Source: Planctomycetota bacterium (GTDB lineage Bacteria > Planctomycetota > UBA1135 > GCA-002686595). Taken from it: a DNA stretch of 42,180 nucleotides. The notes under the pieces were generated by a model, which was not told the DNA's origin, ran no database searches, and saw only the letters and a program-made list of their open reading frames with translations. Of the stretch, positions 35,303 through 36,879 are shown piece after piece; position 1 is the stretch's first letter; each line of letters starts with the position of its first letter. The stretch lies in the NCBI GenBank assembly GCA_021730845.1, contig JAKFYL010000234.1, forward strand, positions 1-42,180. The letters are read 5' to 3'. Made by a program: the position numbers and the translations under genes.

Positions 35303-35653
35303 ATGGAACCACGCATCGACTGGTACTACCACCGCAAGGGTTGAATGAGCTGCACCAAGGCCGACGCGCTGCTGGCGCGAGGGGGCCACACCGCCCGTGA
35401 GACGGTGAACGCCAAGAAGACCAGGATTGGTCCCAGGGACCTCGAGCGCGTGCTTGAAGGAGCCAAGCGCGTCATCGCTTCCAAGGGCGCGAACGTGCGC
35501 ACCTTTGACCTGGCCAAGATCGATCTGCAGGACAAGGAATTCTTGGCGGCCGTCATCGGCCCCACGGGCAACTTGCGGGCGCCGACTTTGCGATTGGGCA
35601 AGACAGCCTTGATCGGATTCCACCAAGAAACTTGGAAAGAACAACTGGGTTGA
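35303..35653 (+). CDS. ArsC/Spx-like protein, probable selenoprotein (in-frame TGA = Sec)
   Basis: Read through the TGA at 35342-35344 this gene gives 116 residues, the normal length of small ArsC/Spx/YffB-like thioredoxin-fold proteins. From ATG 35303 the product starts MEPRIDWYYHRKG, then Sec14-Met-Ser-Cys17, then TKADALLARGG and the family's later blocks DLAKIDLQDKEFLAAVIGPTGNLRAPTLRLGKTALIGF. In relatives the motif is CxxC, so TGA replaces exactly the first redox Cys. The frame is open on both sides of the TGA and the part before it is conserved-looking (strand, then turn). A start at ATG 35345 would remove strand 1 and the active site. It probably reduces a thiol or oxyanion substrate. 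The stop overlaps the start of the threonine ammonia-lyase gene. Confidence 0.8.
35342..35387 (+). promoter_or_regulatory. UGA codon plus bacterial SECIS-like stem-loop
   Basis: After the TGA (35342-35344) the transcript can fold CGCGC (35365-35369) with GCGCG (35375-35379) around the loop UGCUG, extended below an internal loop by GGCC (35359-35362) with GGCC (35384-35387). The apical loop starts 25 nt after the UGA and contains a G near its 5' side, within the distance known for bacterial SelB-binding elements. All of it lies in coding sequence, as bacterial SECIS elements must. Confidence 0.6.
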
Positions 35654-36879
35654 GCGCACCCGATTCGAACTTCGAGGCGCTGGATCCACAGCGCGCGTTG
35701 CCGCTGATTCGAGCTGCCGCACAACGTCTGCGGCCGCATGCGCGCCGAACGCCCTGTGTGTATTCCTACACTTTCAGCGAGAGTTCGGGCGCGGATGTGT
35801 GGCTCAAGCTCGAAAACTTGCAGCGCACCGGCTCGTACAAGGTGCGCGGCGCGCTCAACAAGCTCTTGGGCATGGGCGCCAAAGAACTCGAGCGCGGGCT
35901 CGTGGCTGCCTCTGCCGGCAACCACGCCCAAGGCGTGGCCCTCGCGGCCAAGCTCGTGGGGGCCAAGGCCACGATATTCATGCCGCGCACCACAGCCCTG
36001 CTCAAGGTGCAGCGCACCGAGAGTTACGGCGCCCAGGTCGTCTTGACCGGAGACAACTACGACCAAGCGCAGCAGGCAGCCGGGGCGCACCGCGACCAAT
36101 ATGGATCTACGCTGATCCATCCCTATGACGATCCCGAAGTGATCTTGGGGCAAGCGACGGTTGGTTTGGAGCTGGCTGAGGAATTGTCCGAGCTGGATGC
36201 CGTGGTCGTGCCGATTGGAGGTGGCGGACTCCTCGCGGGCATGGCCCTGGCGCTCAAGGCTTTGTGCCCCAAGGTGCGTCTGATCGGCGTGCAAGCATCC
36301 GGCGCAGCGCCCATGGTGCGTTCCTTTCAGCAAGGCGTCCCGGTAGCAGTCGAGAATCCGACCACGCTGGCCGAGGGCATTCGCGTGGGCAAAGTCGGTC
36401 GATTGACCTTTCCCATCGTCAAACGACTGGTCGACGAATGCGTGTGCGTGGAAGAGGACGAATTGATCGAGGCCGTCGTGCAGACGATGGAAAAGAGCAA
36501 GGTCGTTGCCGAGACCGCAGGCGTCGCGGCCGTGGCCGCCCTGATCGCGGGCAAGGTCCCGAGCGCACGCAAAGTCGCTGCGGTCATCTCGGGCGGCAAC
36601 ATCGACCTCAATACCCTATCCAGAGTGATCGAAGCCGGTTTTGCACGCACGGGTCGTACGCATTTGGTGCGCCTACGCATGCCGGACCAACCGGGCGGTC
36701 TGGCGCGTGTGCTGGACGTGATCGCGGGTGCGCAAGGCAACGTGCTGGACGTGCAGCATTACCGCAGCGGTTGGAATGTTCCCGTGGGAACGGTGGACGT
36801 CGAAATCCTGATCGAGCTACGCCGCCCGGGGTCCGCGGCTCAAATCGACGAGCTGCTGCGCAGCAAATTCCCCAGCTAG
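35650..36879 (+). CDS. ilvA: Threonine ammonia-lyase with C-terminal ACT domain
   Basis: 409 residues from TTG 35650, which overlaps the preceding stop (TTGA); an in-frame TTG at 35632 would add six residues. It is a fold-type II PLP enzyme: Lys64 in GSYKVRGA is the PLP lysine, SAGNHAQG binds the substrate carboxylate, and GGGGLLAG holds the PLP phosphate. The final ~75 residues (THLVRLRMPDQPGGLARVLDVIAG...) form an ACT domain, giving the layout of the shorter, TdcB/IlvA-type enzymes of many bacteria. It converts threonine to 2-oxobutanoate and ammonia, for isoleucine synthesis or threonine breakdown. Coupling to a redox protein upstream is unusual; no functional link is known to me. Confidence 0.88.
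   Translation: MSAPDSNFEALDPQRALPLIRAAAQRLRPHARRTPCVYSYTFSESSGADVWLKLENLQRTGSYKVRGALNKLLGMGAKELERGLVAASAGNHAQGVALAAKLVGAKATIFMPRTTALLKVQRTESYGAQVVLTGDNYDQAQQAAGAHRDQYGSTLIHPYDDPEVILGQATVGLELAEELSELDAVVVPIGGGGLLAGMALALKALCPKVRLIGVQASGAAPMVRSFQQGVPVAVENPTTLAEGIRVGKVGRLTFPIVKRLVDECVCVEEDELIEAVVQTMEKSKVVAETAGVAAVAALIAGKVPSARKVAAVISGGNIDLNTLSRVIEAGFARTGRTHLVRLRMPDQPGGLARVLDVIAGAQGNVLDVQHYRSGWNVPVGTVDVEILIELRRPGSAAQIDELLRSKFPS

Follow-up and report, generated by a model that had tools for sequence, protein, structure and literature searches.

Selenoproteins of the ArsC group and the bacterial SECIS

Small selenoproteins akin to arsenate reductase (ArsC) are already on record. The Global Ocean Sampling selenoproteome includes an 'arsenate reductase 2' with a UxxC motif (cd03032; PMC2398784), a UxxC 'Arsenate reductase-like protein' (COG1393) appears in PMC9312934, and NCBIfam holds the entry NF041106 'ArsC family (seleno)protein' (ArsC_rel_Se_1). 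In the bacterial (bSECIS) model, the SECIS, the hairpin bound by SelB, has a G among its first two loop nucleotides, usually followed by G or U, and the UGA and the loop are 16-37 nt apart (PMC13188914). According to the same review, some bSECIS elements fail the model; the one considered here is not named there. For the upper stem-loop of E. coli, a spacing of 11 nt is quoted (PMC8659212).

Here we examine a gene of this kind in the window, i.e. the whole analysed stretch of 42,180 nucleotides from a Planctomycetota bacterium (contig JAKFYL010000234.1). The selenoprotein itself is not new but is a new member of a family known from earlier work as UxxC 'arsenate reductase 2'; the unusual part of the case is the SECIS, which the sequence-only reading that preceded this analysis did not address. 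A literature search on Planctomycetota SECIS, non-standard bSECIS and SECIS displacement, covering mostly papers available without subscription, yielded no description of the element.

A UxxC selenoprotein gene with an in-frame TGA

The gene and the two codons of its redox motif are as follows.

35303..35653, + strand: ArsC/Spx-like selenoprotein gene, 116 residues with Sec at 14, terminal stop TGA at 35651-35653
35342..35344, + strand: UGA codon for Sec, opening the UxxC motif (of 175 homologues, 149 have TGA here and 26 have Cys)
35351..35353, + strand: codon of the second, resolving Cys (C17) in U-M-S-C, an invariant column

With the TGA read as a residue, 35303-35653 encodes MEPRIDWYYHRKG-U-MSC...GNLRAPTLRLGK...EQLG, i.e. 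116 residues with U at position 14; a standard ORF caller reports only 35345-35653, 102 aa, from the ATG at 35345 that directly follows the TGA. The sequence-only reading had held that the TGA splits an ArsC/Spx-like frame, that UMSC stands where relatives have CxxC, and that the conventional call truncates the protein, all of which is borne out. The joined product matches NF041106 at 121.6 bits (cut-off 85) over profile positions 1-106 of 107, that is, over its full length, and Pfam ArsC at 27.1 bits (cut-off 24), and the (U/C)xxC motif of NF041106 is present as U14 and C17, both in conserved columns. The window protein thus has in common with NF041106 the full-length match, the UxxC or CxxC active site and the Sec/Cys alternation, with no difference at the protein level; the family entry is silent on the SECIS. 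The proteins of PMC2398784 and PMC9312934, which bear out the remark that ArsC-like selenoproteins had been described before, are likened to it by description, not by sequence, as belonging to the same fold group and carrying the same bacterial UxxC motif; the location of the SECIS is not described in the relevant passages of these two papers.

The homologues were assembled from relatives and named contigs (nearly all Planctomycetota) together with an even sample of the phylum; a single-query scan of genome contigs returned no relatives, and an alignment query returned hundreds. Among the 175 Planctomycetota homologues, position 14 is TGA in 149, TGC or TGT in 26, and nothing else, although the sequences are related, so that these counts are not independent events, and, with duplicates filtered out inside the first pool, the two pools may share a few genes. 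The TGA occupies the same column in most relatives and is flanked by nearly invariant residues (R11, U/C14, C17), with C17 invariant across the homologues. The ATG that follows the TGA in the window is not conserved, most relatives having Thr at this place. Matches to NF041106 over the cut-off were found in 84 of 151 relatives, nearly all with exactly one internal TGA. Two records labelled Melainabacteria and Cyanobacteria (L176, L183) carry neighbouring Sec and Cys versions of the gene; the family may reach beyond Planctomycetota, or the labels may be wrong.

The genome of the window encodes the complete machinery for Sec insertion, namely, selC (72.6 bits, called by ARAGORN as tRNA-SeC with the anticodon tca), SelA (477 bits), SelB (353 bits, with the C-terminal winged-helix domain present) and SelD (313 bits, with its own in-frame TGA at the known Sec site); tRNA-Sec was found in 135 of the 151 relatives. 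The joint presence of selC, SelA, SelB and SelD in one genome, which is a criterion for bacterial selenoproteins, and the restriction of position 14 to Sec or Cys are two of the checks that the sequence-only reading had proposed, and both came out in favor of its claim that UGA is decoded as Sec. On the basis of this comparison and of the machinery, Sec decoding of the TGA at 35342-35344 is near certain.

The AlphaFold model of the 116-residue product is confident (mean pLDDT 90.5), and among solved structures it comes closest to Spx and ArsC-like proteins (best E-value 5.8e-5, TM about 0.53); to those in PDB entries 6gho, 3gfk and 1rw1, the window protein shows about 20% identity and a TM of about 0.5. 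The predicted fold is a thioredoxin fold of the ArsC/Spx type in which helix 1 begins with the redox motif, and the protein is likely to be a Sec-based oxidoreductase of the ArsC/Spx group with a putative selenol/thiol redox chemistry. Neither arsenate reduction nor Spx-like regulation is specifically supported for the window protein; against the profile of Spx/MgsR regulators (TIGR01617), it scores 18.5 bits, the cut-off being 75.05. The gene context gives no functional clue: across 107 loci, each neighbour family recurs in 15 at most. A threonine ammonia-lyase-like gene (PALP and ACT domains; 35650-36879), absent from the shared neighbour families, can start at TTG 35650, a start that overlaps the stop of the selenoprotein gene, so that translational coupling is possible.

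Two types of candidate SECIS in one family

Downstream of the UGA, the window gene contains two abutting hairpins.

35359..35387, + strand: HP1, first hairpin, GGCC..CGCGCU-GCU-GGCGCG....GGCC, at the site of the SECIS in canonical members and read here as a folded spacer
35389..35407, + strand: HP2, second hairpin, CACCGCC-CGUGA-GACGGUG, candidate SelB-binding SECIS stem, with one C.A mismatch in this gene
35396..35400, + strand: apical loop of HP2, CGUGA, separated from the UGA by 51 nt

HP2 resembles the consensus bSECIS (PMC13188914) in being a coding-region hairpin after the UGA with a small apical loop of G followed by G or U, and the loop CGUGA of the window gene conforms to the G[G/U] rule; it differs in that its loop lies behind another hairpin and at 51 nt from the UGA, beyond the 16-37 nt of the model. 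Between 16 and 37 nt after the UGA, the window gene has no hairpin that combines a G[G/U] loop with a contiguous stem of more than 3 bp, and Rfam at gathering thresholds gave no match in the window. Other Planctomycetota members carry a canonical SECIS, for example, GCGCAAGA-GUU-UCUUGCGC, with the loop 23 nt from the UGA.

Canonical elements were called by applying the published rule for loop and distance and taking the longest uninterrupted stem, with at least 6 contiguous pairs; a strict canonical loop at fixed columns was rejected, as it gave false 'both' calls. By this measure, the 149 Sec genes comprise 71 with the canonical hairpin only, 73 with HP2 only, 5 with HP2 and a marginal canonical stem, and none with neither, so that the HP2-bearing genes, hereinafter type II, make up 78 of the 149, the window gene included. 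None of the 26 Cys genes has HP2 and two have a canonical-looking stem, plausibly by chance. The best qualifying canonical stem has a median of 3 bp in type II genes, the same as in Cys genes (3 bp), versus 7 bp in canonical genes. Since the type II rule was defined on the first set of genes, only a further set, fetched from outside the order after the rule had been fixed, is an independent test: there, all 43 Sec genes have an element (30 canonical, 13 HP2), 42 of the 43 have exactly one, the remaining gene (L213) combining HP2 with a 5-bp canonical stem, and HP2 is found in 0 of 9 Cys genes. Judging from these sequences, the family makes near-exclusive use of either the canonical hairpin or HP2.

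RNA-level constraint on the second hairpin

For a synonymous-constraint scan, 68 Sec genes were aligned gap-free from the UGA (index 0-2). A sharp peak appears at codon 18 (index 54-56), inside the HP2 loop, where the G-statistic reaches 143.5, as compared to at most about 45 elsewhere. The Arg codon at this place is CGT in 50 genes, CGG in 10 and CGC in none, whereas elsewhere in the same genes CGC accounts for 233 of 447 Arg codons. Two Cys versions (L087 and L155) retain the loop Arg with the codon CGC, which never occurs at this position in the Sec genes of the first set.

In type II genes, the consensus of HP2 is a stem ACCGUC/GACGGU with the loop CGUGA or CGGGA, and every one of the 65 type II genes in the first set has CGUGA, CGGGA, CGUGG or CGUGC as its loop. 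Among 54 distinct sequences, 92.9% of the cells are paired, and six of the seven pairs show compensatory changes; there are 36 double-change cells versus 12.4 upon shuffling, and 0-15 when the partner is slid by 1-3 columns. The compensatory pairs at third codon positions include C-G to G-C, and the top ten APC-corrected covariation scores over all column pairs include 50-62, where both columns are third codon positions, and 51-61. RNAalifold recovers HP2 unaided, with no structure for inputs of 45-60 nt and HP2 at 66 nt. A codon-permutation test that keeps the protein and the codon use gave mean z-scores for the HP2 region of -1.51 in type II, +0.20 in canonical and +0.29 in Cys genes. A candidate long-range stem between GCA at +69 and a UGC close to the UGA was discarded, its pairs lacking covariation.

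In the further set, the loop codon encodes Gly in six genes and Ser in one (GGG, GGT, AGT), and the RNA loop is still N-G-[G/U], as GGGAC, GGGCA, GGUCA or AGUCU; hence, to judge from the alignments, the loop RNA is kept while the encoded residue changes. Further, SelD genes of relatives (families f6 and f7) carry a CGUGA or CGGGC pentaloop on a strong stem about 26 nt from the UGA, i.e. at the canonical distance, which provides independent support for the HP2 loop as the one recognized by SelB. The window gene is somewhat atypical: the C.A mismatch in its HP2 is unique among the type II genes of the first set, and, when its RNA is folded at lengths of at least 80 nt, the predicted minimum loses HP2 in favor of other pairings.

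The first hairpin and the distance to the candidate SelB loop

HP1 lies between the UGA and HP2, abutting the latter, in most type II genes, where it has no conserved G[U/G] loop. In the same codon-permutation test, the mean z-scores for the HP1 region were -2.04 in type II, -1.35 in canonical and +0.10 in Cys genes. Once HP1 is folded, the stretch between the UGA and HP2 has a median of 12 nt (interquartile range 12-16) outside HP1, compared with a linear distance of 51 nt; for E. coli, a similar spacing of 11 nt is cited. HP1 of the window gene forms a stable stem, and its loop, GCU, opens with G and lies at the usual distance, 26 nt from the UGA, so that HP1 of this one gene could be read, loosely, as canonical.

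A proposed displaced SECIS: mechanism and alternatives

We consider it likely that the window gene encodes a small UxxC selenol/thiol oxidoreductase into which Sec is inserted in a SelB-dependent manner from a displaced, tandem-hairpin SECIS, with HP2 as the SECIS and HP1 as a folded spacer. Specifically, SelA and SelD would provide Sec-tRNA(Sec) for delivery by SelB; carrying GTP and this tRNA, SelB would bind the HP2 loop, N-G-[U/G]-N-N, 51 nt downstream of the UGA; and HP1 would stay folded ahead of the ribosome, shortening the path to about 12 nt outside HP1 between the UGA and HP2, so that SelB could reach the A site when the UGA arrives. Comparison of the genes demonstrates the restriction of position 14 to Sec or Cys, the complete machinery, the pairing and loop constraint of HP2, and the near-exclusive use of one element, patterns from which we infer SelB binding to HP2 and the spacer role of HP1. 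As a mechanism, HP2 as the SECIS appears well supported by these comparative data.

The gene could be suspected of being a pseudogene or of encoding a shorter protein from ATG 35345, with the TGA as a true stop or a sequencing error, given that the ORF caller reports 35345-35653 with an ATG directly after the TGA. We give this next to no credence. The TGA is in the same column in most relatives, with conserved residues before it, other homologues have Cys there, the Sec machinery is complete, and the ATG is replaced by Thr in most relatives; a sequencing error is implausible because the TGA is found in more than 100 independent assemblies, and the Sec/Cys-only position 14, together with the invariant C17 and the unconserved ATG, excludes the readings as a stop, a frameshift or a start at 35345 for practical purposes. 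A more subtle objection is that the conservation of HP2 reflects a constraint on the TVRETV peptide or a local codon bias instead of RNA structure. The peptide is, indeed, conserved in most type II proteins, and the pattern persists in synonymous shuffles for about a third of the genes (22.8 of 65); however, the third-position compensatory pairs (C-G to G-C), the lack of CGC among 60 Arg codons, the persistence of the loop motif with Gly or Ser, and the absence of the signal from canonical and Cys genes make this explanation highly improbable.

The alternative that deserves the most attention is that HP1 (loop GCU, 26 nt) acts canonically as the SECIS in the window gene, with HP2 in an auxiliary role, e.g. 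as a pausing hairpin. The stability of HP1 in the window gene, its usual distance and the G that opens its loop are all compatible with such a role, as is the RNA-level constraint on HP1 in type II genes. Nevertheless, HP1 of type II genes has no conserved G[U/G] loop and the best canonical stem there only equals that of Cys genes; the strongest codon constraint falls in the HP2 loop (143.5 versus at most about 45); and HP2 is confined to genes that lack the canonical loop, five marginal cases apart. We therefore regard a canonical HP1 as unlikely, albeit with a real chance of being correct.

Evolution of the SECIS

In the protein trees, the SECIS types are strongly clustered, with 4 changes among the Sec genes (many forks being unresolved) and 5 changes with the columns that overlap the RNA element excluded, compared to a mean of about 41 for a shuffled type II label. 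Both SECIS types are present inside families f15 and f27, which suggests more than one shift. Probably, the SECIS shifted more than once within one family, the SelB loop being lost from the usual hairpin and gained by the abutting one (or the reverse), with the old stem retained as a folded spacer, whereby the effective distance would be restored. This would define a distinct tandem-hairpin class, with the loop at 51 nt, that is missed by the current rules.

A natural class with the loop at 51 nt would escape the rule by which bacterial SECIS are searched for, i.e. a loop at 16-37 nt, and, accordingly, selenoproteins are probably missed or truncated in annotation. Furthermore, the canonical, displaced and Cys sets within one family amount to a natural experiment on the reach of SelB and the effective distance, and show how the demands of RNA and protein are traded in the same codons.

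Other selenoprotein genes of the same genome and of its relatives were also inspected. SelD of the window's genome (L018, C286, minus strand) is itself a selenoprotein (CAG-U-AGK), and its UGA is followed by two abutting hairpins, AGAUGCCC-CAA-GGGCAUCU and then GCGCAG-GUU-CUGCGC, the loop of the second one lying 33 nt from the UGA. Among families, the SelD SECIS loops differ (L090-L113), with GUN at 33 nt in f1 and CGUGA or CGGGC at about 26 nt in f6 and f7, which suggests, as far as these sequences go, that the SECIS may have shifted in SelD, too. The window's genome also contains FdhA, the formate dehydrogenase alpha subunit (L251, C60), whose usual Sec site is occupied by an in-frame TGA (CNRTUHAPSVVGL).
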